The notes below the pieces were generated by a model. The model was not told the DNA's origin, did not search any database, and was given only the letters and a program-made list of their open reading frames with translations. The position numbers and the translations under genes were made by a program. Shown here piece by piece: positions 4,745 to 16,059 of a stretch of 64,000 nt of DNA. The DNA is from Candidatus Bathyarchaeia archaeon (GTDB taxonomy: Archaea; Thermoproteota; Bathyarchaeia; Bathyarchaeales; Bathycorpusculaceae), in NCBI GenBank assembly GCA_038873195.1, contig JAVZEV010000001.1, positions 276,490 to 340,489 of the forward strand, in the 5' to 3' direction. How positions within the stretch are numbered: position 1 is the first letter of the stretch; each line of letters begins with the position of its first letter.

Positions 4745-4871
4745 GTAGTATAGTGCATCTTAATATTTAATACGCTATTTCTGAAACCGACATATATCGG
4801 CAATCGTAAAATCTAAAAACCATGGTGACTTCTCCCGCACAACCCCTTTTTTTATTGTGAGGTAAACGTTA

Positions 4872-4979
4872 ATGGATAATGGCGATTTTCTCTTTTTGAT
4901 TTTTGCGTTGTTAGTGTTTATCGTTATGGTAGGTGATTATGAACGTGGAAAAAGTAAAGGTGAAAAGGAAAAAGCATAA
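4872..4979 (+). CDS. Small single-span membrane protein (35 aa)
   Basis: A short frame starts at ATG 4872 with a good Shine-Dalgarno (GAGGT at 4858-4862) and ends at TAA 4977-4979. The product begins MDNGDFLFLIFALLVFIVMV, one hydrophobic helix, followed by a charged KSKGEKEKA tail. Its last 41 bases overlap the next gene in another frame. Size, signal and overlap resemble tiny genes at the edge of viral or plasmid elements. It is too short for homology by eye. Confidence 0.45.
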   Translation: MDNGDFLFLIFALLVFIVMVGDYERGKSKGEKEKA

Positions 4980-5124
4980 GCGCAAAACACTTGAAAAGCG
5001 CATCATGGAGAGAGAGTTAGCGTTAAACGAGCTTTGGCTCTACAACGAAACCATTCATTCACGCATGACTCAGGAAGCTTTCTTGTTAGAGCGTAAAAGG
5101 AATCCGCGGGACTACATAACTTAG
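4939..5124 (+). CDS. Small basic protein of unknown function
   Basis: The 61-residue frame from ATG 4939 has GGTG at 4932-4935 as a ribosome-binding site; an in-frame GTG at 4933 is less likely. The N terminus is very basic (VKVKRKKHKRKTLEKR), followed by an amphipathic helix (ALNELWLYNETIHSRM). This suggests a nucleic-acid-binding peptide, but no family is recognised. It overlaps the preceding membrane peptide gene, so the two are probably translated from one message. Confidence 0.5.
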   Translation: MNVEKVKVKRKKHKRKTLEKRIMERELALNELWLYNETIHSRMTQEAFLLERKRNPRDYIT

Positions 5125-5204
5125 AGTAATACGCAACCATTAACATTATTTCTTTACCACACTCGACAACAACAATAACTTAACTTAAATAGTAAAGCAA
5201 AAAG

Positions 5205-5221
5205 AAGCTCAAATTGAGCTT
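5205..5221. terminator. Palindromic hairpin, possible bidirectional terminator
   Basis: AAGCTCAA and TTGAGCTT form eight-base arms around a single A. T-rich runs follow on either strand (TTTTCC on plus, CTTTTTGC on minus). It lies between a plus-strand gene and the end of a minus-strand gene, where a shared terminator is expected. The core GCTCAAATTGAGC recurs near 23530, also followed by T5. A second inverted repeat (TGAGATA ... TATCTCA, 5245-5269) lies just to the right. Confidence 0.4.
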
Positions 5222-5323
5222 TTCCATGCAAAATTAACCTAGAGTGAGATATTTCCGCGTATTATCTCATTGGATAAAGAAAAAAGGGAAGGTTAGGGTA
5301 GATGCTCGTAGTGTTCTTTTGAG

Positions 5324-5746
5324 TTATGGTATGTAGAAGGCTAGGTTGAAACTGTACGAGCCAATTGGCAAGGCTTTTGTTAGCTGAAGTGTCACGGTTA
5401 GGTTTGTTGTTGCGTCTGGGCTTAGAATCCAGCTTGTCTTGTCCATGCTGACTGTCCAGCCGTCTGGCAAGTCTGTTACGGTTGCGTTGAAGCTTAACTC
5501 TGTGTTGCCGATGTTATGTAGGTAGAATGTTGCTTGTTTTGTTTCTCCGATATTGCTGAACGTTCCCCAATCATACGAGCTTATAGGTGTTCCAGGTGGA
5601 CTTTCCACTTGCAGTGCGGCTATGCCTGCGACTTGCATGTTGTTCGTTATGGTTTTCAAAGTGACTAAAGCGTAGGCGGTTAAGGCGAGGCAAAGCAGAG
5701 CGATAGTTAAAGCTGCAACCGTGAGTTTGCTAACTTTTGTTTTCAT
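5324..5746 (-). CDS. Exported or membrane-anchored beta-sandwich protein
   Basis: The first 30 residues from ATG 5746 form an N-terminal signal anchor (MKTKVSKLTVAALTIALLCL, then ALTAYALV). The rest looks like an Ig-like/NEW3 beta sandwich, with alternating strands such as QATFYLHNIGNTELSFNATV and a DGWTVSMD segment, as in archaeal S-layer-associated and cell-surface proteins. An in-frame start further upstream (5803) would put 19 basic residues before the signal sequence, so I prefer 5746. It is probably outside the cell. It stands alone between a plus-strand gene pair and an RHH gene, and whether it belongs to the element is unclear. Confidence 0.6.
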   Translation of the reverse strand: MKTKVSKLTVAALTIALLCLALTAYALVTLKTITNNMQVAGIAALQVESPPGTPISSYDWGTFSNIGETKQATFYLHNIGNTELSFNATVTDLPDGWTVSMDKTSWILSPDATTNLTVTLQLTKALPIGSYSFNLAFYIP

Positions 5747-5890
5747 TTTCCTTATTCTCCACTCCGTTTTGCTAAGCAGACGCTTAGCGTATGCAGTTTT
5801 CACACGATTAACTATTTAAAATTTCATAATATGCTTTAAACATAAAAGTTCTTAAATCAGTGGATAACAATTATACCCATGTGAGAAAGT

Positions 5891-6061
5891 ATGAATGTTG
5901 AGAATGAAATGCCGAAACAAAGAGTTACAGTCAGCATAAGCAAAGACGTTCTAGAATGGATTGACAGTCAAGTTGAGAAGCGAATCTTTAAGGATAGAAG
6001 CCACGCATTTGAAAAGCTCATCTACGACAAAATGCAAGAACAAAAAGAAAAGAAGCAGTAA
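5891..6061 (+). CDS. Ribbon-helix-helix DNA-binding protein
   Basis: A 56-residue frame from ATG 5891 to TAA 6059-6061. The beta strand QRVTVSISKD (about residues 10-19) is followed by two helices (VLEWIDSQVEKRIF, then SHAFEKLIYDKMQEQ), the standard MetJ/Arc/CopG fold for dimeric operator binding. The gene is short but the pattern is clear. It is the first of two RHH proteins in this element and probably regulates its transcription or copy number. Confidence 0.65.
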   Translation: MNVENEMPKQRVTVSISKDVLEWIDSQVEKRIFKDRSHAFEKLIYDKMQEQKEKKQ

Positions 6062-6108
6062 GGGTTAAGGTTTAAATTTGGAAACGCCATCATTATGGTA
6101 AGGGTAAA

Positions 6109-6639
6109 ATGGGCTTATACGAATCATTAACCGAATCTTTTCCCTTAGAGGAAACCGTGTTCGGTTCTTGCCTTCTAATTCCACATGCACTTTTTAAGCC
6201 TGAATGGAATGAACAGTTAAGTAAGGAAGGCGTTAAGGTTTTTCAGCAAGCTTATAATGGCAAACTTTTCTTTTTCTTAAAGAAATCCGACGGGAATGGT
6301 GCGGTTAAGTCTCCAGAAGAGCCTAAGCGTCAAGAGTTGAAGCCTATCGTGTGGAACGAGGAAACTTTAAGGCTGGTTGAAAAGTTTCGTAGGGAAGGGT
6401 TAAGCTACTACAAAATAGCTGCTAAAATGGAAGAGTTCGGGTTTAAGGTAGCTCACACAACGATAATGAAGAAACTGAAGCGGAGAATGGCGCATTCGCA
6501 AAGTTTAAACGTTCAATGTGAAGGTGACGGTTTATTCCGAGAATTCCTGGAAGCTTTGGAAATACTTTATCCAAAGTATCGCAAAGCCTGTGCAGTTTTG
6601 CTTAGGGAAGCTTCAAAGGTTTTGGAGAATAGTCCATAA
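6109..6639 (+). CDS. Helix-turn-helix protein of the integrated element
   Basis: The 176-residue protein has an N-terminal part of unknown fold (about 1-70), with hydrophobic FGSCLLIPHALF and KLFFFLKK strands. A resolvase-type helix-turn-helix lies near residues 85-125 (LVEKFRREGLSYYKIAAKM, then VAHTTIMKKLKR), followed by a helical tail. It starts at ATG 6109 after GGTAAGG. The HTH suggests DNA binding in regulation or replication of the element; nothing shows catalytic activity. It lies 47 nt after the RHH gene, in the same direction. Confidence 0.55.
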   Translation: MGLYESLTESFPLEETVFGSCLLIPHALFKPEWNEQLSKEGVKVFQQAYNGKLFFFLKKSDGNGAVKSPEEPKRQELKPIVWNEETLRLVEKFRREGLSYYKIAAKMEEFGFKVAHTTIMKKLKRRMAHSQSLNVQCEGDGLFREFLEALEILYPKYRKACAVLLREASKVLENSP

Positions 6640-6735
6640 ACCAGCCGCTATAGTATTATAGTTCACTACTATCACGCTTAAACCTTTCGAACAGTCAAAG
6701 TTTTAAACATAAAAAAAGAGAGGTGAAACAGCATA

Positions 6736-7023
6736 GTGTTTGAAAAACTGAGGAAGTTTCTCGAAGACAAGAGGGCTGAGGCACCTATGGGCGGCGGCGG
6801 AGTAATTGGCGTTCTGGTTGGAATCATGGTTTCGCTGTTGATAGCTATCATAGTGATTCAAAGTTTGGTTAACAGCCAATCTCAAGCCGGCTGGACTGCG
6901 CAAGCGAACAGCACTTGGGCTGCATTGCAAAGCAACATTTGGGTTGCAATGACACTGCTCGTAATCATTCCAATAATAGTTGGAGCAGTGATAATCCTCG
7001 GCTACGTAAGAAGAGGAATGTAA
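6736..7023 (+). CDS. Two-helix membrane protein resembling spindle-virus capsid protein VP1
   Basis: The 95-residue protein (GTG start, GAGGTG just upstream) has a charged N-terminal segment (1-15), a glycine run (MGGGG, 18-22), a first hydrophobic helix (about 23-46), a polar turn with Asn/Ser/Gln (46-66) and a second hydrophobic helix (about 67-90) with a basic end. This glycine-helix-polar-turn-helix arrangement, and a Glu-Ala junction before the first helix, recall the processed VP1 major capsid protein of fuselloviruses. That similarity is from memory and pattern only. Other two-helix membrane proteins cannot be excluded. A run of T at about 7056-7062 may end its transcript. Confidence 0.45.
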   Translation: MFEKLRKFLEDKRAEAPMGGGGVIGVLVGIMVSLLIAIIVIQSLVNSQSQAGWTAQANSTWAALQSNIWVAMTLLVIIPIIVGAVIILGYVRRGM

Positions 7024-7047
7024 CAATACTACGAGCATCACAGCCTC

Positions 7048-7449
7048 TTAACTTCCCTTTTTTTGTGTAACGCCATATTTCAAATTAAACCTTTCAAGTT
7101 CCTCTTGATACCATTCGTTATCTAACTCTTTGACAAGGTTAAGAAAGTCGACGTCCAAGCAGTAAAGCTTTCGTTCCCTCTCGTTCAAGTTGGGATTTGG
7201 AAGCATAAAAGCTTCAGCGGAACGCTTCTCTTCAGTTTCAGCTTGCTCTTTCAAACGGAAATAAACACCGACTGGTTTAAGCCTGTCATGCACAACTCTA
7301 TAAATTTTCTTCTGTTTTTCCATTTTCTGAATTGCCGTTTTAACTGCTCTTTCAGTATATCCAGCAGCTACACAATAAGCGATGACGTCTGCTTCTCTTA
7401 CGATACCATATTTAGCTAAACATTCGGTAACTTTGTCTTCAGCCGTCAT
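7048..7449 (-). CDS. Winged-helix-like protein of the integrated element
   Basis: I use ATG 7449, preceded by GGTGA at the right distance; TTG 7461 is an alternative. The N-terminal half (about residues 1-62) looks like a winged helix: VTECLAKYGIVREADVIAYC, TERAVKTAIQKMEKQKKIYR and a wing ending GVYFRL. The C-terminal half is charged and unassigned. It is the only leftward gene in the core of the element, which is a common position for a regulator. Its start faces the second RHH gene, about 85 nt away. Confidence 0.5.
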   Translation of the reverse strand: MTAEDKVTECLAKYGIVREADVIAYCVAAGYTERAVKTAIQKMEKQKKIYRVVHDRLKPVGVYFRLKEQAETEEKRSAEAFMLPNPNLNERERKLYCLDVDFLNLVKELDNEWYQEELERFNLKYGVTQKKGS

Positions 7450-7534
7450 ACATTTCACCAAGTGAAATGTTGAAACTTCACCAGGACTTTATTTGTCCGC
7501 TAATTTAAAAACGTTCTACACAAAGGTGTGTAAA

Positions 7535-7690
7535 ATGCCGAAGGTAAAAGCTGAATATGAAGGAAGAATCGCATTCCGACTGCCAAAGGAAGACAGAGAA
7601 AAAATTGAAAGACTAATCATCCAGGGTAAATTCAAAAAAATTAGTGAAGTCATCCGTGCAGCCTTGGACCAGTTTCTCCAAACTGCTTAG
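7535..7690 (+). CDS. Ribbon-helix-helix DNA-binding protein (CopG-like)
   Basis: The 51-residue protein from ATG 7535 has AAGGTG upstream. It shows an RHH pattern: a strand (GRIAFRLPKED) then two helices (REKIERLIIQGKF and ISEVIRAALDQFLQ). A TTG at 7493 is a less likely start. It sits 12 nt before the primase-helicase gene and is probably co-transcribed with it, as plasmid copy-number repressors often are. Confidence 0.65.
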   Translation: MPKVKAEYEGRIAFRLPKEDREKIERLIIQGKFKKISEVIRAALDQFLQTA

Positions 7691-7702
7691 GAGTTTCCAA
7701 AA

Positions 7703-10171
7703 ATGGATTTAAAGGGTGCAGCCAGACAATATTGGCTTCTTGGCTGCAACATTGTTTTGCTCAGAGGCAAAGAGCCACTGCATAAATGGAGCCAATGGCG
7801 AAGCGAAAGGCAGAGTGAGCTTAACTTTGAAGCGTTGCCATGGAATGAAGCTGATGGCTTTGCCATAATCTGCGGACAGCAAATGCACAATGAGCTTTAT
7901 GTTGGAGCCGTAGACTTTGATGTTAAAAACCTGCCACAAGAAACCGTAGACAAAGGCAAGCAAGTTTTAAAGTTTATGCCAATAACTCAGATGGAAGAGA
8001 CTCCAAGCAGAGGACAACATTGGATTTATTTTACACGTAAAAAACCAAAAAGCGTTTCAGCTTTTCATAACGTGGCTGCTTTGGAACTGGTTGGTGAAAA
8101 CAAGCTGTTAATAATGGCTCCAAGCAAAGGTTATAGAAGGCTAAATGACAATACTGCAACAATTGTTGAAAACTTGGAAAACTTGTTTTTGGAAGCTTTG
8201 GCAAAGGCTGGAGTTAAAATTGCTCGCATTACGAGTGAATTTTGGTTTGATAAGCCAGACTTAGCCAAGCAACCTTACAGAGGCAAGGCTCCTCCGTGCA
8301 TTCGGAGTTTGATGGAAGGCACAAAGCAGGGACTGCGGAATGAATATGCAGTAAGGTTGGCTGGTTTTCTCTGCAACTTCAAGAAATTGGAGCCTAAAAA
8401 AGCATGGAAGCAGCTTCAAGAGTGGAACCAACGGAATCAGCCCCCTTTACCTGAAACTGAACTTTCCGCTTGTTTTAAAAGTGCAGTGGAAAAACGGTAC
8501 GTTTACGGATGCAGCGACAATATTCTGGCAAGCCTATGCGACATGGAAAACTGCAGTCTAGCCAAAACGGAAGTGAAAGAGCAGGAATCAGCGAAGAAAC
8601 AATTGAAAGATTCTGGCGTGTTGCCAGATGGATGTTTCGAGGCAATTTACCACAATGGAAAACCATGCTTCTTGATTTTGAACAGCAGAAAATTCTTTAT
8701 TGCGGAAAAGGTTGAAGTTGAAGGAAAATGTTTTCTTCCGAAAGAAGCCAGAAACGTGCCTTACGAGCCTTACGGTTTCTATGAAGGAGAAGTTGACGTT
8801 CACAGCTTGTTTGAAGATGTTAAACTGTGGATTCAAAAGCTGATTGACGTGGAGCCAATTTACCGGGATATTCTTGCAGTTTGCGTTTTAATGAGTTACC
8901 AGCAGGAGAAACTGCACACTGTGCCGTACCTCTTCTTTTTCGGAGACAACGAGAGTGGAAAAAGCACGGTTCTAAAAGTGTTAAACAAACTTTGTTACAG
9001 ACCGCTTTTTGGAGTAACTATTCCAGCAGCAGACTTGTATGGCTACTTGGAAGATTCAGATTCAATTGGCTGCATCTTAGAAGATGAAGTTCAAGGAATC
9101 CACAAGGACACGGACAAGATTAAAATCTACAAGTCTGGCTACAGTCGAGGAGCCAAAGTCCCGAGAATGATAACAACAGAATATTCCAGGTATATTAAGT
9201 ATTACAATGTGTTCTGCTTCAAAGCGTGTGCAAGCGAGCAGATTCCACAGGTAAAAGGCTTCAACGAAAGGTTCCTTTTCGTCGCAATGGTTGAGGGCTA
9301 TCCGCAGCTTGAATGGGTTGACTTAACCAAAGAGCAGATGGAACAGTTAAACGCTTTGCGAAACAAACTGCTAAAATGGAGAATGTTAACTCGAAACCAA
9401 GAGTTGCCAGAAATCCAACTTAAAATTAAGGGAAGATTAAAAGAACTGTGGAAGCCTCTGCTGCAAGTTGCCTACGGCTTGCCTGCTTACGAAAACCTTG
9501 TAAATTTTCTGGAAGAGCAGCAGAAAGAAAGGCTGAGTGGAAAACAAGACACGTTGGAAGGGAAAATTGTCAAAGTGGTAGTTGACTTGTTTAACAGCAA
9601 CTTGGAGGGTTTACCGACGATTCCATTCTCTACAATTTGGAGCAACCTGCAAGAAGAGTTGAATGCAAAAATAGACTCGCAAAAAGACTATGTCATGCAC
9701 ACAAGCGAATTCGACGACGTGACAAAAAACAAGGTTGGTTATAGGCTTAGGGAGATTCTGAGTGGAAAAACTCAAGTAAAAAAAGAGAAAGATTTGGAAG
9801 GCAATTGGGTTTCGATTAAGGCTTATGTTTTTGACGTAAACAAACTGAAAAGAATAGCGAGAAAGTATGGTTACGAGTTTTCTACTAAGTTACCGAGTGT
9901 ACCGAGTTCCGAGAGTGTAAGCACTTCTGAAACTATGGAGAAAGTCCATGAAAACAATGTTGAAAAAGAGGCTCCTACACCTCTGCAACTCGGTACACTT
10001 AGTAACTCGGTAGAAAGCCAGTTGCAAGAGCAGAAACCGCAAGATTTGCTTCAATGCCACTTTTGCAGAAGTATTGGCAAGTCAAAGTTTTTCGCCACTC
10101 AAGCAGACTTAGACAGGCACCTTGTGGCTTTGCACTCTGGCTATCAAGGAAAAAGAGAGGTTAAAGGCTAA
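7703..10171 (+). CDS. Primase-polymerase / SF3-like helicase with C2H2 zinc finger
   Basis: This 822-residue protein is the probable replication initiator of the element. The N-terminal primase-polymerase domain has a DFD metal motif (71-73) and a downstream His (H107 in SRGQHWIYF). Next comes a primase C-terminal region with spaced cysteines (about 199, 270, 279 and 284), possibly binding metal or an Fe-S cluster. The ATPase has Walker A GDNESGKST (414-422) and a Walker B-like ILEDE (458-462), as in D5/SF3 helicases. A low-complexity Ser/Glu/Val linker (about 730-780) leads to a C2H2 finger (C785, C788, H806, H811). The next gene overlaps by one base (TAATG). The domain order follows known archaeal plasmid and virus primase-helicases; the terminal C2H2 finger is unusual. 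Confidence 0.75.
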   Translation: MDLKGAARQYWLLGCNIVLLRGKEPLHKWSQWRSERQSELNFEALPWNEADGFAIICGQQMHNELYVGAVDFDVKNLPQETVDKGKQVLKFMPITQMEETPSRGQHWIYFTRKKPKSVSAFHNVAALELVGENKLLIMAPSKGYRRLNDNTATIVENLENLFLEALAKAGVKIARITSEFWFDKPDLAKQPYRGKAPPCIRSLMEGTKQGLRNEYAVRLAGFLCNFKKLEPKKAWKQLQEWNQRNQPPLPETELSACFKSAVEKRYVYGCSDNILASLCDMENCSLAKTEVKEQESAKKQLKDSGVLPDGCFEAIYHNGKPCFLILNSRKFFIAEKVEVEGKCFLPKEARNVPYEPYGFYEGEVDVHSLFEDVKLWIQKLIDVEPIYRDILAVCVLMSYQQEKLHTVPYLFFFGDNESGKSTVLKVLNKLCYRPLFGVTIPAADLYGYLEDSDSIGCILEDEVQGIHKDTDKIKIYKSGYSRGAKVPRMITTEYSRYIKYYNVFCFKACASEQIPQVKGFNERFLFVAMVEGYPQLEWVDLTKEQMEQLNALRNKLLKWRMLTRNQELPEIQLKIKGRLKELWKPLLQVAYGLPAYENLVNFLEEQQKERLSGKQDTLEGKIVKVVVDLFNSNLEGLPTIPFSTIWSNLQEELNAKIDSQKDYVMHTSEFDDVTKNKVGYRLREILSGKTQVKKEKDLEGNWVSIKAYVFDVNKLKRIARKYGYEFSTKLPSVPSSESVSTSETMEKVHENNVEKEAPTPLQLGTLSNSVESQLQEQKPQDLLQCHFCRSIGKSKFFATQADLDRHLVALHSGYQGKREVKG
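9891..10012. repeat. Inverted TACCGAGT repeats within the primase-helicase linker
   Basis: Two copies of TACCGAGT (9891-9898 and 9900-9907) face two inverted copies, ACTCGGTA (9989-9996 and 10005-10012). GTGTACCGAGTT at 9897-9908 is the exact reverse complement of 9987-9998. The repeats lie in the part of the gene coding for a flexible linker. They could form a long stem or act as initiator-binding iterons. Confidence 0.5.
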
Positions 10172-11454
10172 TGGCTCGGCTGTGCTGTCCAGAATGTGGT
10201 TCTCAGCTTCTCTATAAGGATGGTTTACGTTATCTTAGTGGTGGTTCAACAGTTCAAAGGTGGCTTTGCCGAAACTGTGGTTATCGGTTCTCAGAGAAAA
10301 GCATATCAGATATGCCTAAAAACACTGTATTAACCGTTAATACAGTTGAGAGAACCGATTTAACTTCGTCAACGGTTGACGAAGTTGAAAGGACAGACTT
10401 AACTGTGCCAACGGTTGGCACAGTTGAGAAATATTCTCAGCATAAGTCTTTTAAGAATTGTCTGACACAATGCAATAGCGATGCACATGGCAAGAAGGTT
10501 CTTGTCATGGAAGCGGCAAAAGCAACAAGTGAAAAGCGGGAAGCGGGAGCCACAGAAACCGCACAGCAGCACGGTTTAATCCTTGAATATGCATGGAAAC
10601 TAAAGAAGCGTGGACTATCCGACGTTAGCATAAAAACGAGAAGTTACCAGTTAGCTCAATTAGTCAAGCATGGAGCAGACTTGCGCAATCCTGAAAGTGT
10701 CGAAACGGTTTTGGCAACGGAAAAACTGACACCATGCCAAAAGAAAAACCGAGTTTCAGCTTACACTTCATACTGCAAAGTCATGGATATAAAATGGACA
10801 CCATTCAAAGTTAAATACCAACCTAAACAACCGTTCATTCCATTAGAAGCCGAACTGGACCAGTTGATAGCTGCATGTGGAAAAACAACCGCGGCTTTCC
10901 TTCAAATCTTAAAGGACACAGGTGCAAGAGCAGGAGAAATTGCACGGTTAAAATGGACAGACGTAAACTTTGAACATAACACTATAAGCATTAACGAAGC
11001 CGAAAAAGGCTCAAACACTCGAACATTAAAGGTTTCGCAAAAAGCAATCGCCATGATAAAGAATCTACCTAAAAAATACGGCGAATACATATTCAACCCC
11101 AACCCGCCATTAGCAGCTTCAATAAAAGAATGCTTGCAGCTTGCAAGAAAACGTTTAGCAAGAAACCTTCAGAACCCCAGGTTCCTACAAATTCACTTCC
11201 ACACTTTCCGTCATTGGAAGGCAACAATGGAATACGCAAAAACAAAGGACATCCTACATGTTAGGCAATTGCTGGGACATAAACAAATTCAAAGCACACT
11301 TGTCTATACTACACTGGTAAACTTTGAAGCGGATGAATACGTTGTTAAAAGACCAAAAACCACAGAGGAAGAGGATGAACTTATCAAGGCAGGGTTTGAA
11401 TATGTCAGATTTGACGATAAAATGCAAGCGCCAATTTATAGGAAGAGGAAGTAG
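10171..11454 (+). CDS. Tyrosine recombinase (integrase) with N-terminal zinc ribbon
   Basis: The 427-residue protein has an N-terminal zinc ribbon (C5/C6, C9, C33, C36), a Thr/Val/Glu-rich linker made of 13-residue repeats (about 50-90), a SAM-like core-binding domain (about 132-215) and a tyrosine recombinase catalytic domain. Catalytic residues visible are R253 (TGARAGEIARLKW), H344/R347 (HTFRHW), H370 (LGHKQI) and Y379 (TLVYT); a candidate Lys is K287. It starts with a one-base overlap on the primase gene. It would catalyse integration and excision of the element. Its linker region carries the palindrome array described separately. The gene is intact, so it is not split by integration. Confidence 0.88.
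   Translation: MARLCCPECGSQLLYKDGLRYLSGGSTVQRWLCRNCGYRFSEKSISDMPKNTVLTVNTVERTDLTSSTVDEVERTDLTVPTVGTVEKYSQHKSFKNCLTQCNSDAHGKKVLVMEAAKATSEKREAGATETAQQHGLILEYAWKLKKRGLSDVSIKTRSYQLAQLVKHGADLRNPESVETVLATEKLTPCQKKNRVSAYTSYCKVMDIKWTPFKVKYQPKQPFIPLEAELDQLIAACGKTTAAFLQILKDTGARAGEIARLKWTDVNFEHNTISINEAEKGSNTRTLKVSQKAIAMIKNLPKKYGEYIFNPNPPLAASIKECLQLARKRLARNLQNPRFLQIHFHTFRHWKATMEYAKTKDILHVRQLLGHKQIQSTLVYTTLVNFEADEYVVKRPKTTEEEDELIKAGFEYVRFDDKMQAPIYRKRK
10288..10440. repeat. Array of perfect palindromes, three on a 39-nt period
   Basis: Perfect palindromes with a single central base lie at 10288-10298, 10301-10315, 10324-10346, 10362-10386 and 10401-10425; a sixth at 10425-10439 has a three-base loop. The three long ones have centres at 10335, 10374 and 10413, exactly 39 nt apart. 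They share ACT outside and AACNGTT inside, while five middle bases differ in each and are matched by complementary changes in the other arm. The period equals 13 codons and stays in frame. Confidence 0.85.
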
Positions 11455-11554
11455 CAACATGGCAAAACCTTTCGGAATCCACGGAAAACTTTCACTTTTC
11501 GTAAATTCTAAAAGGAGTATGCACTTTAAGTATCCGTATGATATTTGCATTTGA

Positions 11555-12040
11555 ATGGTGAGGGAGAAAATGGAAGAAAAACACGAGTGTTTTGGTTTTC
11601 GCGTGAAAATGGGCGAGTATGAAGTGGAAATTAACGGAACACGCGAAGAAGTTTTAAAAACCGTAGAAGATTTGCCGAATTTAATGGTTAACGTGCAAAA
11701 AGCCTTTGAAACTGTCAAGCCTAAAACAGTCGCGACACTTACAATTAAGAAGGAAGCACCCAAAGAAGAAGCGGGAGCTCCAGCGCAGAAGTACCCGAAA
11801 ATTATGCGCACAGACAATTGCGGCGAAGCCATTTTGCGGGTTCTTGAGACTGATTGGGGAAAGTGGCGACCGAGGACTATGGATGAGTTAAGAGAAGCGT
11901 TAAAGGCTAATGAGCTGGATTTTTCTGGGCGAGTTTTAGCTGGGGTTCTCATGGGACTTGTTAAGCAAGGAAGAATCAGACGGTGGAAGACTGATGCGGG
12001 TCACGTGTATATTTTAGCCGAGAAGGAAACGTTGGCTTAG
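11555..12040 (+). CDS. Two-part protein: beta module plus winged helix (paralogue 1)
   Basis: The 161-residue protein has an N-terminal module with two short strands and a helix (KMGEYEVEINGTREEVLKTVEDL), a linker with Lys/Glu/Ala, and a C-terminal winged helix (about 92-152: EAILRVLETDWGKW, TMDELREAL, RVLAGVLMGLVKQGRIRRW). Two nearby genes (12055 and 12976) have the same layout. GGTGA at 11557-11561 would serve an internal ATG at 11570, which is an alternative start. It follows the recombinase by 100 nt. No function is known to me; DNA binding by the wing is inferred. Confidence 0.6.
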   Translation: MVREKMEEKHECFGFRVKMGEYEVEINGTREEVLKTVEDLPNLMVNVQKAFETVKPKTVATLTIKKEAPKEEAGAPAQKYPKIMRTDNCGEAILRVLETDWGKWRPRTMDELREALKANELDFSGRVLAGVLMGLVKQGRIRRWKTDAGHVYILAEKETLA

Positions 12041-12054
12041 GAGGATAACGCTCT

Positions 12055-12525
12055 ATGGGAAAGGTTGAAGCGCGGATTAAGACGCCCTTCGGCGAGATTG
12101 TAGTGGAAGGCGAAAATGCGCAAGAAGTTCTGGGCTTGTTGGAGAGTTTTCCGAAAGATTTTGTGGAGAAAGTATTGGATTTTGTTTCGAACAGACTTGT
12201 TCCTTCAGGTGTCCAGTTGAAGGGCATTGTGGAGTTTACGACTGAAGGCCCCGTGATTGTGGCGCGTGAGAATCTTACACATTATGAAGCGATTGGGTTG
12301 ACCTTGTATGCTTCTGAGGAGAAGAAGAACACTGCAGCGCAGATTCAGAAACTTCTGGAGTCAAGTGGAATAAAATGTATGGTTCCTGCACGGTTGAATG
12401 AGATGACTAAACGCGGACAAGTGTTTAAGCCAGACCCCAATAAGCCAGAGTTTAAGTTAACTGTGCAGGGCGAGCGTTGGGTTGAGGATGAAGTTTTGGC
12501 TAAGCTTCGAGGTAAGATGGGTTAG
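12055..12525 (+). CDS. Two-part protein: beta module plus winged helix (paralogue 2)
   Basis: The 156-residue protein starts 15 nt after the previous gene, with GGAGG before ATG 12055. The N terminus repeats the layout KVEARIKTPFGEIVVEGENAQEV then a helix (LGLLESFPKDFVEKVLDFV). The C-terminal half is a winged helix (AIGLTLYASEEKKNTAAQI, LLESSG, LNEMTKRGQVF, VQGERWV). The same family layout and direction suggest an operon of duplicated genes. Function unknown. Confidence 0.6.
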   Translation: MGKVEARIKTPFGEIVVEGENAQEVLGLLESFPKDFVEKVLDFVSNRLVPSGVQLKGIVEFTTEGPVIVARENLTHYEAIGLTLYASEEKKNTAAQIQKLLESSGIKCMVPARLNEMTKRGQVFKPDPNKPEFKLTVQGERWVEDEVLAKLRGKMG

Positions 12526-12603
12526 GCTGTACATGCAACAGTATCTAATCCACCTATTGTTTAAATGTTGATACGATGTGATTAACTATGGAGATGATTG
12601 TTA

Positions 12604-12972
12604 ATGAGTTCAGTCTTCGATGATATGACAGATTCGGAGAGAAGAGTTGCTAGTTTTCTGACGGAATTGGGTCTCAAATGGGTTTACGAATTTCCAGTAT
12701 TTGTTTATGATGAAAAAGACAGACCAAGAGTGTGGACACCCGATTTCTATATTCCGAAGTTAGGAATGCATATAGAGGTTTGTGGCTCAGAAGATTTTAA
12801 CTATAGGTATAGGGAAGAAATTTACGAAAAAAATGGTTATTATGTTGTCTTTCTTCACATTTACAAGCAACCAGAAAAATGGAAGAATTTTCTGATAGCA
12901 AGAATAAGGGAAATTGAAGAATCAAGACATACGGAGGTATTAAAGATTTCAGACTTCACTTATTCACGCTAA
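12604..12972 (+). CDS. PD-(D/E)XK nuclease-like protein with altered active site
   Basis: The 122-residue protein (ATG 12604, GGAGATG upstream) resembles the small Vsr/DUF559-like nuclease fold: SERRVASFLTELG (helix with E), YEFPVFVYD, TPDFYIPKLGMHIEVCG, then GYYVVFLHI. The aspartate of the PDF motif and the glutamate of IEV are present. The lysine normally two residues after the glutamate is cysteine here (IEVCG). The protein may be inactive, or may use another residue. It lies between paralogues 2 and 3 and ends 3 nt before the latter, so it probably works with them. An in-frame TTG at 12598 is the alternative start. Confidence 0.55.
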   Translation: MSSVFDDMTDSERRVASFLTELGLKWVYEFPVFVYDEKDRPRVWTPDFYIPKLGMHIEVCGSEDFNYRYREEIYEKNGYYVVFLHIYKQPEKWKNFLIARIREIEESRHTEVLKISDFTYSR

Positions 12973-12975
12973 AAA

Positions 12976-13515
12976 ATGGACGTGGAAAATTTGGTTAATA
13001 AACAACAAGATAAATCGCGTGATGTTACGGTTCATGTGCGTTATGGTGATGTAGAGAAGACTTTTTCGGGCAGTGTTGAAGATGTTTGGCTGAGTTTAAG
13101 CAAGTTTTTTGGCGAGTTTTTGCCTTCTTTCGACGTTGCTAAGCGGCTTGTTTTTAATGTAGATTTGGAAGAGCTTGTTAAGGCGTGTGAGGGCTTGATT
13201 GGTTTTTCTAAGGAAGGTGCAAGTTTGCTTGTTGGTAAGGATAGGCTTACGGATAATGAGACTTTGTTGTTGTGGCTTTTGGCTGCTAATGTAGGTTATG
13301 GTTTAGGTTTATTGCAGAGTGATTGTGTTTCTAAGGAAGAGTTGCAAGCTAAGTTAGGGAAGAGTGGAAAGATTGTAAGCACAAGACTTGGTGAGCTTGT
13401 CAAAAGCGATATGGTTATGAAGACCAGTGATGACAAATATAGGATTACAACTTTTGGCGTTGTGCAAATGCAGAAAGAGTTTATTCCAAAGATTAAGGCG
13501 AAAATTAGCGGTTGA
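12976..13515 (+). CDS. Two-part protein: beta module plus winged helix (paralogue 3)
   Basis: The 179-residue protein begins with VTVHVRYGDVEKTFSGSVEDV (two strands, helix). It continues with a helical middle that includes a hydrophobic stretch (TLLLWLLAANVGYGLGLL, about 96-113). It ends in a winged helix (SKEELQAKLGKSGKIVSTRL, ELVKSDMVMKTSDDKYRITTFG). Layout and order match the two genes at 11555 and 12055. It follows the nuclease-like gene by only 3 nt. Codon choice is T/G-rich, unlike gatDE. Function unknown. Confidence 0.6.
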   Translation: MDVENLVNKQQDKSRDVTVHVRYGDVEKTFSGSVEDVWLSLSKFFGEFLPSFDVAKRLVFNVDLEELVKACEGLIGFSKEGASLLVGKDRLTDNETLLLWLLAANVGYGLGLLQSDCVSKEELQAKLGKSGKIVSTRLGELVKSDMVMKTSDDKYRITTFGVVQMQKEFIPKIKAKISG

Positions 13516-13595
13516 TTTTCATGTAAATGGCAACATGTCTTATGCGTGACTGCAAGAAAAATCTTTTATGATTGGTTCCACATTCAAAAAGCTCT

Positions 13596-15014
13596 ATGTC
13601 CAGCGAATCTGAAGGACCAGCAAAATCTCCTGAAATAAGCAAATACAGGGATAAGATTGTCAGCGGACCAATCATTCGCACAATTTTTTGGTTGGGCTTA
13701 CCTCCTCTTGTAAATCAGCTGGTAGTTGTTACTTACAACGTAGCAGACGCTTACTGGTTAAGTAGTTACAACGAAATTGCAGTGGCAGTTCCTAGACAAA
13801 TGTGGCCTGTCTTAATGCTTTTTCAAGCGCTTGTGATGGCTTTAACAACTGCTTGTTTAAGCATGGTATCGCAGTATATTGGAGGCAAAGCTTACAAGAA
13901 GGCTAGTTTGGAAGCGTCACGTTTCTTTACTGTAGCTTTTCTTGCAGGAGCCATGTTGAGTCTTTCGCTTTTAACTCTTAGAGGCTTAATTTTCACGTGG
14001 GTTGTGTCTACTCCGCCTGAAATATTTGAGGACGTCATGAGATACTCTGGCGTAATAGCTTTCGATGTATTCTTTAATTACATAGCTCTCACATATACCA
14101 CATTACTTCAAAGCGTCGGAGACACTAAGCGACCAGCCATAGTTAATGTGGTATCCGTGGGCATCAACGTTATCTTAGACCCGTTTTTCGTATTGGGCAT
14201 TGGACCTTTTCCTCGTTTGGGGGTGATGGGTGCAGCTCTTACTGATGTTTTGGGGAAGCTAATATCGATAAGTGCTTTGACTTATTTGCTTCGGAGGGAT
14301 TATCCTGAGCTTAAGATAAGGTTTACTAAGGAAATAGATGCTGAGTGGGTTCGTCTATTTTTGCGTATAGGTTTGCCAATTCTGACGCTTGGTTTGACGA
14401 ATGGTTTTGCTTTTCTCATGCAACTTAGGCTTGTTAACATGTTAGGCATTTTTGCAGCTACTGCTTTTTCCATAGGGTTTGTGATAATGGACATTGTGGA
14501 TGCTGCGTTGTGGGGGCTTAGTGGTGCGCCAGCTATAATGATAGGGCAAAGCTTGGGAGCGGGAAATCGTGAAAGGGCTAGGGAGGTTGCGTTTAAAGCG
14601 GCTCTTTTAATATTTAGTCTTATGGTGTTAGTAGCGGGCATTATCTATCCGATTAGAGGAGTTGTGGTTGATGTGTTTGCGGATGACCCGAACATAGTGA
14701 ATGAGACTGAACTGTTCATGCAGATGTTACTGCCGACGCTTCCGTTTTTCGGTTTGTTCGCAAATGCCATGTCCACTGGGAGAGGGTCAGGGCACACGTT
14801 GTTTCCGACGGCTGTTGGCGTGTCAAGACTTTGGGGAATACGGTTGGCTTTGGGTTATGTTTTAGCTTTTACTTTGGCAATGGGTTCTTTGGGGGTTTGG
14901 TTGGCTTTCGCTGTTAGCAATGTTATAGGAGGAGTTGTTTCTATTCTTTGGATAAAGTATGGAAATTGGGCTGAAGCAGTGGTTGATAAGAACCGTTTGT
15001 CGGAAAATACGTGA
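13596..15014 (+). CDS. MATE family efflux transporter
   Basis: The protein has about 12 hydrophobic helices and the MATE layout: ISGPIIRTIFWLGLPPLVN-type opening, AVAVPRQMWPVLML, a repeated half starting near ADWVRLFLRIGLPI, and GQSLGAGNRERA as the duplicate of QYIGGKAYKKA. It would export cationic drugs or metabolites using an ion gradient. A TATA-like CTTTTATG at 13563-13570 lies about 26 nt before ATG 13596, pointing to a leaderless message. A TTG at 13572 lies too close to the promoter. Substrate unknown. Confidence 0.88.
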   Translation: MSSESEGPAKSPEISKYRDKIVSGPIIRTIFWLGLPPLVNQLVVVTYNVADAYWLSSYNEIAVAVPRQMWPVLMLFQALVMALTTACLSMVSQYIGGKAYKKASLEASRFFTVAFLAGAMLSLSLLTLRGLIFTWVVSTPPEIFEDVMRYSGVIAFDVFFNYIALTYTTLLQSVGDTKRPAIVNVVSVGINVILDPFFVLGIGPFPRLGVMGAALTDVLGKLISISALTYLLRRDYPELKIRFTKEIDAEWVRLFLRIGLPILTLGLTNGFAFLMQLRLVNMLGIFAATAFSIGFVIMDIVDAALWGLSGAPAIMIGQSLGAGNRERAREVAFKAALLIFSLMVLVAGIIYPIRGVVVDVFADDPNIVNETELFMQMLLPTLPFFGLFANAMSTGRGSGHTLFPTAVGVSRLWGIRLALGYVLAFTLAMGSLGVWLAFAVSNVIGGVVSILWIKYGNWAEAVVDKNRLSENT

Positions 15015-15081
15015 TTTCGGCGGTCAATTATCATTGCATGTGAGGTTTTCTATAATCTGTTTGCGAAAGACTAGGAGCAAG

Positions 15082-16059
15082 TTAGGTTATTATTGGTGTT
15101 GTCAGTTTTGTGGCGTTTGTTGGACATGTGGTTACGCAGAGTCCACATCCATGGCAGTTTTCTTTTATGACTATGCTTTTGTTGTTTTCGAGTTTTCTGG
15201 CTTGGAATATGCAGCGTGTTAGGCACGTGCCGCATCCGTTACATTTGTCTAAGTCGACTGTTGCGGTTAGTCCGGATTTTGCTATGTGGTGTTTTACGCC
15301 GTAGTTTATGTATGTTCTTAGGTAGTTGCAGCAGCATGGGCAACAACTGCATATGTCAAATACTTCGCCTTTTTGCCAATCCGTGTAGAGTGCTTGGTGG
15401 ATGAGACCGTGTTTGTTGGCTATTTGTAGGGCTTTTTTGGCTTCTTCGAGGGAGATTTGTTCTGCTGCGTTTCGTTCTGTGAGTTCTTTTGAGAAGTCAT
15501 CTAGTGCAAGGCATGTTCTTAATGGTTTATTGCAGTTTTTGTAGGTTAGTCTGCATTCGCAGTTGCGGAGTGATATGTGGTTTGCTTCTTGTAGGATTGT
15601 GACTGCGGTTTCGGTGGGTAAAACTATTGTGACTGGTTCTGTGATGGCTTCTGGTATTGGCAAGATTTTTGCTTCTGGGTTTGGGTCGTTTTTTGCGCGG
15701 TTCACGTGTTCTTCGAAGCAGTAGTCTACTAATGCTGCAGCGTATTTTCCAAAGATGTTTGCTCTGTTTTCGCCTAGGTATCTGGAGATTATGCTTTTGA
15801 AGGGTTTTACTGTGTAATGAATTGTTTTGTCTTTTTTCTTTGTTAGGAAGCCTTTCATGAACAGAGTGTTGATATGGCGGTTTATGATGGCTCGTGGCTG
15901 TTTTAGAGTGTTGGATAGTTCTGCTATTGTTTGTTCTTTTTCGCAGAGTTTGAGGAGGATTTCTGTTTCTTCGGGTTTAACTATTAACGGGAGAACATCT
16001 GTGAACATTGGTGGAGCTTTTAATGCTTTGGCTAGTTGACGGTAATTTTCAAGGCACAT
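15082..16059 (-). CDS. Winged-helix protein fused to cysteine-rich and 2x[4Fe-4S] ferredoxin domains
   Basis: From ATG 16059 the 325-residue protein has a winged-helix domain (about 33-90: ILLKLCEKEQTIAELSNTLK, AIINRHINTLFMKGFL). A middle domain with clustered cysteines follows (NCECRLTYKNC, then ICSCCPCCCNYL). It ends in two [4Fe-4S] motifs (CNGCGTCLTRC and CHGCGLCVTTCP). A TATATAAG box on the minus strand overlaps the first codons of the longer reading frame (start 16119), so that upstream ATG cannot be used and the leader is short. It could be a redox-sensing regulator or an electron-transfer protein with a DNA-binding head. Convergent with the MATE gene. Confidence 0.7.
   Translation of the reverse strand: MCLENYRQLAKALKAPPMFTDVLPLIVKPEETEILLKLCEKEQTIAELSNTLKQPRAIINRHINTLFMKGFLTKKKDKTIHYTVKPFKSIISRYLGENRANIFGKYAAALVDYCFEEHVNRAKNDPNPEAKILPIPEAITEPVTIVLPTETAVTILQEANHISLRNCECRLTYKNCNKPLRTCLALDDFSKELTERNAAEQISLEEAKKALQIANKHGLIHQALYTDWQKGEVFDICSCCPCCCNYLRTYINYGVKHHIAKSGLTATVDLDKCNGCGTCLTRCIFQARKLENNKSIVIKENCHGCGLCVTTCPTNATKLTTPIIT

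Follow-up and report, generated by a model that had tools for sequence, protein, structure and literature searches.

A row of protein-coding palindromes in an archaeal proviral integrase gene, possibly created and maintained through self-templated copying

The integrase gene of a provirus in a Candidatus Bathyarchaeia archaeon carries three perfect palindromes at a period of 39 nt, part of a longer row whose sequence, but not whose palindromic character, has been replaced in a sister copy of the gene. Our preferred explanation, held with confidence and doubt in about equal measure, is that self-templated copying creates these protein-coding palindromes and preserves their perfection, and that they are tolerated because they fall in a disordered linker of the protein. 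Below, we describe the row within the window, i.e. the whole 64-kb stretch of DNA that was analysed, and weigh this explanation against its alternatives.

A periodic row of palindromes in a tyrosine integrase gene

The row is located in the linker-coding part of int, between the sequences for the zinc ribbon and the recombinase core. Its elements and the gene that contains them are:

10171-11454, forward strand: tyrosine integrase of 427 aa, with a zinc ribbon (aa 1-41), a predicted disordered linker (aa 47-126), and core-binding and catalytic domains
10288-10298, forward strand: small palindrome TTCTCAGAGAA, arm 5
10301-10315, forward strand: palindrome GCATATCAGATATGC, arm 7, 1-nt centre
10324-10346, forward strand: palindrome 1, ACTGTATTAACCGTTAATACAGT, arm 11, centre 10335
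10362-10386, forward strand: palindrome 2, AACTTCGTCAACGGTTGACGAAGTT, arm 12, centre 10374, with a homologous covaried unit in the integrase gene L012
10401-10425, forward strand: palindrome 3, AACTGTGCCAACGGTTGGCACAGTT, arm 12, centre 10413
10425-10439, forward strand: hairpin TGAGAAATATTCTCA, arm 6, 3-nt loop
10491-10504: hairpin, arm 6, 2-nt loop
10290-10443, forward strand: hypervariable palindromic segment; the sister int has an entirely different sequence here, between flanks (10164-10289 and 10444-10568) that are 98% identical

The protein is a tyrosine recombinase, as judged by a match to PF00589 at aa 226-381 (2.4e-21), with Phage_integrase being the only family found in the Pfam scan, and by the catalytic residues R253, R347, H348, H370 and Y379, which are invariant in 28 sequences. 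In an AlphaFold model built on a 28-sequence alignment, the ribbon and the core are folded, while the linker (aa 47-126) has a pLDDT <50 and is presumably disordered. Relatives of the integrase on named contigs come nearly all from Bathyarchaeota or neighbouring archaea.

An initial reading of the sequence alone had described three perfect palindromes with 1-nt centres exactly 39 nt apart, and this description is confirmed. It had further noted constant ACT/AGT ends and a constant AACNGTT around five variable bases; the arms indeed read ACT-GTATT-AAC-C, ACT-TCGTC-AAC-G and ACT-GTGCC-AAC-G in units 1, 2 and 3, but to say that the variable bases differ completely is a slight overstatement, as units 1 and 3 share GT. 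The two smaller perfect palindromes reported upstream are present, whereas the one reported downstream (10425-10439) is not strictly perfect owing to its 3-nt loop, and the hairpin at 10491-10504 had been missed.

Only seven palindromes in the 64 kb have an arm of at least 8 and a loop of at most 4, and the three of the row have the longest arms among them. The 163-nt row stretch is strongly folded both as RNA (-62.8 kcal/mol, z -9.5) and as DNA (-40.6, z -9.7), and no shuffle was as good in either case. A longest arm of at least 11 was reached in 1 of 4000 codon-order shuffles, and a third-best arm of at least 11 in 2 of 4000 synonymous resamplings from a pool that took in the palindromes' own codons. 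Because such controls almost never yield three such palindromes, the row is neither a product of chance nor forced by the encoded peptide.

Complete turnover between related integrases

The same genome harbours a sister provirus (G000:C1, locus L097, about 8525-16023), with host homology stopping at 8524 and resuming at 16024. Its int DNA matches both flanks of the window segment at 98% identity, yet the segment in between is unrelated and forms a palindrome row of its own: GTCAGA-AA-TCTGAC, AAAAGAAGCT-7-AGCTTCTTTT, TTGTAAAT-AA-ATTTACAA, GTGACA-AA-TGTCAC and TTCAGCA-AA-TGCTGAA. This sister row (fold z -4.6) has a spacing that is not a multiple of 3 and encodes no peptide repeat. A third row (fold z -6.3) is found in the L012 integrase of another genus and consists of ACTTCGCCAACGGTTGGCGAAGT, ACCCTGTGCAGATTCTGCACAGGGT and AAAGATGCAGAGTCTGCATCTTT. 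It shares one 39-nt unit with the window row: ACTTCGCCAACGGTTGGCGAAGT corresponds to window unit 2 (ACTTCGTCAACGGTTGACGAAGT) except that one T:A pair has become C:G, a substitution in each arm that is nonsynonymous in both cases.

The palindromic segment is thus an extra stretch between zinc ribbon and recombinase core in three related integrases, and it has turned over completely between 98%-identical flanks; the rows known are these three, from two genomes. Homologues without palindromes do exist, but they are without the inserted stretch altogether, as in the short-linker integrases L135, L139, L140 and L155. The earlier claim that structure is kept while sequence is not therefore extends from the units of one row to different genes, given the paired change in the L012 unit and the unrelated row at the same place in the sister int.

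Self-templated copying as the preferred explanation

In the mechanism we favour, short inverted seeds such as AACNGTT would grow into longer palindromes, and these would stay perfect, by self-templated copying of viral DNA as it is replicated or repaired, be it through snap-back of the nascent strand or template switching, or through arm-to-arm conversion of a hairpin. The 39-nt unit would in addition have been duplicated in tandem. Since a point change in one arm would be copied to the other, the arms would covary without any selection on their sequence, and the row would survive because it encodes a disordered linker, in which any sequence that keeps the frame is tolerated. Blocks of palindromes could also move or recombine between proviral sites, as suggested by a 35-nt block common to one int linker and one intergenic spacer (see below), and the row may additionally form mRNA hairpins that function just ahead of a conserved one.

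We infer the copying event from its outcome, which fits quasi-palindrome template switching in that the arms are perfect and G-U pairs are few. We know of no description of such switching as a fixed-period row in one viral gene. G-U pairs make up 6 of 126 inner stem pairs in the rows, compared to 386 of 3138 in the MFE helices of int cores (Fisher p 0.008) and 71 of 663 in the boundary region of the family (p 0.048), as expected from copying between DNA arms. Moreover, in the stretch upstream of the boundary, the family minus the three row genes has a mean zsyn of -0.20, i.e. structure is no family trait there. Template switching, in turn, is an established source of mutations by which perfect stems arise and are maintained (PMC8794818). 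It is this combination of little family-wide signal in the row stretch, few G-U pairs and a known arm-to-arm mechanism that favours self-templated copying, and the suggestion of the sequence-only reading that self-templated repair perfects the hairpins is accordingly the best-supported account of the row. Two counterpoints should be kept in mind: some G-U pairs remain in the extended stems (U-G by the AAC/GTT ends of units 2 and 3; the L012 unit has G-U), which selection on RNA would permit, and that the rows are limited to one gene points to a local cause or to a benefit beyond plain neutrality.

Whatever makes the palindromes is local to the proviruses and not a property of the host, because the host genome is markedly depleted of them: a 400-kb sample of stretches (G000, L220-L239), on which this density rests, contains a single palindrome with an arm of at least 9 and a loop of at most 5, compared to 10-14 in Markov controls. 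A host-wide palindrome mutator was rejected on the same grounds. Clusters of at least three palindromes are likewise rare in 1.25 Mb of loci, being confined to these linkers, the L097 spacer and a few others. A palindrome cluster in the primase-like gene of L009 is probably due to chance.

A conserved hairpin and a candidate internal start at the domain boundary

A possible but rather doubtful alternative is that the hairpins are selected as RNA: the linker mRNA must fold, any stem serves and the arms compensate, the row being an enlarged version of a family-wide, translation-controlling mRNA structure, perhaps for an internal start that gives an integrase without zinc ribbon. The features concerned lie just downstream of the row:

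10486-10509, forward strand: hairpin CATGGCAAGAAGGTTCTTGTCATG at the domain boundary, in the place equivalent to the family hairpin P1 and covering the candidate internal start
10496-10509, forward strand: candidate internal translation start, with SD-like AGGT at 10496-10499 and ATG at 10507-10509 (M113)

Much of the family-wide evidence speaks for a structured mRNA. Across 65 homologues, the linkers fold better than their synonymous recodings (mean z -1.65, compared to +0.19 for the cores), with the signal residing at the core boundary (z -1.79). Here, hairpin P1 (GCCAAGU...ACUUGGC) covaries through G-U intermediates, pair 49/81 being GC in 13, AU in 9 and UA in 4 cases and another pair AU in 24 and GU in 6; its covariation score lies above all slid versions and is reached by 0 of 500 shuffles, although related sequences can produce such scores without structure. 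In a second hairpin, P2, pairing is better between the native arms than after arms are swapped (z -6.4). Codon choice at the boundary is also skewed relative to the core, with TTG in 42 of 43 leucines at the in-frame codon of the P1 3' arm (12% in the core), GAG in 15 of 16 glutamates at -4 (30%) and GTG in 13 of 13 valines at -3 (17%).

As for translation, an SD-like tetramer in one aligned register precedes 32 of 122 boundary starts but only 16 of 757 core starts. This register, which is partly fixed by codon positions, falls inside the peak obtained for this genome at the first start codons of long ORFs, and the ribbon-less relatives L171 and L074 keep the boundary start region. From these sequence patterns, we infer that the integrase family has an internal translation start, partly hidden in the hairpin, that would give a ribbon-less integrase; in the window, starting at M113 would yield aa 113-427 without the zinc ribbon. 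The covarying mRNA hairpin at the boundary of zinc ribbon and core is apparently undescribed, and known RNA families were found neither in the window at gathering scores nor in the int linkers at E<=1.

For the row, however, selection on RNA hairpins predicts a family-wide signal in the row stretch itself, and the fact that there is little such signal outside the three rows counts against it. The same is true of the scarcity of G-U pairs relative to other helices and of the similar palindrome in an intergenic spacer, while the link to translation is weakened by the partial dependence of the SD register on codon positions and by a few GC-rich members that keep P1 yet carry TCG in place of the TTG start. 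Folded RNA as the functional form, as proposed in the sequence-only reading, is supported for P1, a different hairpin of the same linker, whereas the row is better explained by self-templated repair.

A block shared with a proviral spacer

Alternatively, the palindromes might be mobile coding elements, i.e. cassettes inserting in frame into tolerant genes and spacers in the manner of Rickettsia palindromic elements or PARCELs, which we consider unlikely. The swap of a whole segment between conserved flanks would fit this idea, as would a 35-nt block, AAAACATCTTTCAAAGATGCAGAGTCTGCATCTTT, of the L012 linker that recurs unchanged, on the opposite strand, in the L097 intergenic spacer around 13034-13068; the two proviruses concerned come from different host genera. 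The spacer copy comprises a palindrome with an arm of 13 (TCAAAGATGCAGACTCTGCATCTTTGA, 13034-13060) plus flank; within 13005-13130, this unit sits between two 16-nt direct repeats AAATTTAAACTTTAAC, and CGCCACACGCCGTGTGGCG is present as well. Close to the palindrome, homology between the window provirus and its sister is interrupted, and a neighbouring gene is truncated at that point.

Against mobility, the units of different rows are mostly unlike in sequence, and a class-wide DNA search with the three rows in 257 genomes, in which two candidates per genome were scored so that weak copies could escape, returned the rows themselves and short hits but no other extended copy; pattern searches gave none either. 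At the other sites examined in 91 family genomes, the arms around the core TGCAGANTCTGCA are just 6-7 long, and no such row occurs in any of the viral-contig relatives (nine for the window int, two for L012, none for L002). Hits of the L002 linker to AAGCTTAAATCAAGCTT in other genomes were set aside: most are short AT-rich tracts or hairpins close to a tRNA 3' end. As a separate observation, a window spacer holds a perfect palindrome at 5205-5221 (AAGCTCAAATTGAGCTT), whose counterpart in the sister provirus (L097, about 13436-13455) is imperfect and has 15 nt (AAAACAAGCTTAAAT) in common with the L002 int linker.

The attachment site lies outside the integrase gene

The boundaries of the provirus are defined by its att core, CGTAAANTCTAAAA:

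4805-11513: provirus of 6.7 kb carrying the integrase, bounded by the 14-bp att core (CGTAAAATCTAAAA at 4805-4818, CGTAAATTCTAAAA at 11500-11513)

The empty site is present in the congener G001 (attB CGTAAGTTCTAAAA, flanks 89-92% identical). Besides int, the provirus encodes a primase-like protein (PriCT_1) and, at 6736-7023, a hydrophobic 95-aa protein with a weak match to the virion structural PHROG 11172 (E 0.002), making it a possible virion structural protein; presumably, it resembles the coat proteins found in spindle-shaped viruses. As for the sister provirus, its end is at the 5' side of a tRNA-Lys gene (L097:16023-16135), the T arm of which is apparently interrupted by an intron-like insert.

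The downstream att core is 45 bp away from int, which is intact in the integrated provirus, and the row is therefore, as far as integration is concerned, neither an att nor an attC site. It is thus very improbable that the palindromes are folded single-stranded recombination sites akin to integron attC, or that att lies within int as in SSV-type suicidal integrases, even though the gene encodes a tyrosine recombinase, the palindromes contain AAC/GTT and the linker of L093, an IMG/VR contig, has a tRNA 3' end (GGGTTCGCGGGTTCAAATCCCGCCCGGTACA) embedded in frame directly after the zinc ribbon (about 5115-5150). Other members of the family adjoin tRNA or RNase P RNA genes at the 3' end of int, some with tRNA-half direct repeats downstream, and the linkers share nothing with attachment regions beyond short chance matches; guide-like matches, too, were rejected as chance 10-13-mers. 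The solved folds nearest to the predicted integrase are archaeal XerA, followed by integron and XerH recombinases, so that the integron link put forward as speculation in the sequence-only reading is not supported on structural grounds either, XerA rather than IntI being closest. In L022, an archaeal RNase P RNA gene (6238-6543) is located directly 3' of a related int, which suggests that RNase P RNA genes are integration targets besides tRNAs.

Finally, that the 13-aa units of the window linker (TVxxVERTDLT) are selected as protein and the palindromes incidental is hardly credible: the period of 39 equals 13 codons and VERTDL recurs, but the out-of-frame spacing of the sister row, which lacks a peptide repeat, rejects a peptide repeat as the basis of the row, the paired changes are nonsynonymous, the linker is predicted to be disordered and the row is lost on synonymous resampling.

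Comparison with known systems

The row belongs to the protein-coding palindromes: its inverted repeats, perfect or nearly so, stand in an open frame that is presumably translated, and the arms evolve in concert, as seen from the window and L012 units and from the exchanged row of the sister int. The coding palindromes of nematomorph mitochondria are similar in being perfect inverted repeats inside protein-coding genes that are dynamically gained and lost, their arms kept identical by what the authors propose to be conversion or template switching (PMC6649704). They differ in that 110 repeats of at least 15 bp are distributed over entire mitochondrial genomes, conserved parts of proteins included (PMC6649704), whereas the window row is short and does not extend beyond the disordered linker of one viral integrase, the host genome being otherwise depleted of such sequences. 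Quasi-palindrome template switching is a mechanism that would produce perfect stems and concerted changes of both arms in one event (PMC8794818, PMC8604942).

PARCELs are tandem coding repeats with dyad symmetry that are associated with mobile elements in some taxa (PMC2996958), and the row likewise resides on a mobile element, a provirus with an empty site. Yet, PARCELs are 25-aa amphipathic repeats of the DUF285 type, many in membrane-targeted ORFs (PMC2996958), in contrast to 13-aa units in a linker without Pfam match and a sister row without peptide repeat. The palindromic elements of Rickettsia and Wolbachia and the coding palindromes of M. jannaschii, as far as they are covered by citation in PMC2996958, are also in-frame palindromic insertions in unstructured protein parts but form dispersed families in many genes. 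The row, in contrast, is restricted to one gene family, without dispersal to many unrelated loci in the 257 class genomes, a single 35-nt block being shared with a spacer. Integron attC/IntI and SSV-type integrases with attP in int (PMC8371274) resemble the present system in combining a tyrosine recombinase with hairpins inside or close to the gene that encodes it; here, however, the attachment site maps outside int and the hairpins are not the integration site. The row thus falls outside the definitions of both Rickettsia-type elements and PARCELs, and what is new is the archaeal proviral integrase setting, the periodic row with covarying arms and the complete turnover between nearly identical flanks.

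Implications

In a broader and rather improbable scenario, the linker-coding segment would be a dedicated rewriting locus, rebuilt by self-templated copying into ever new hairpin rows and swapping blocks with proviral spacers, its mRNA hairpins tuning the production of full-length relative to zinc-ribbon-less integrase from the conserved internal start. If the internal translation start at the family hairpin is true, this group of integrases makes two proteins. Regardless of this, the sister copies with their 98%-identical flanks represent a clean natural case in which structure has been retained and sequence replaced inside an open reading frame, so that an archaeal virus offers a direct test of hairpin selection against self-templated copying.
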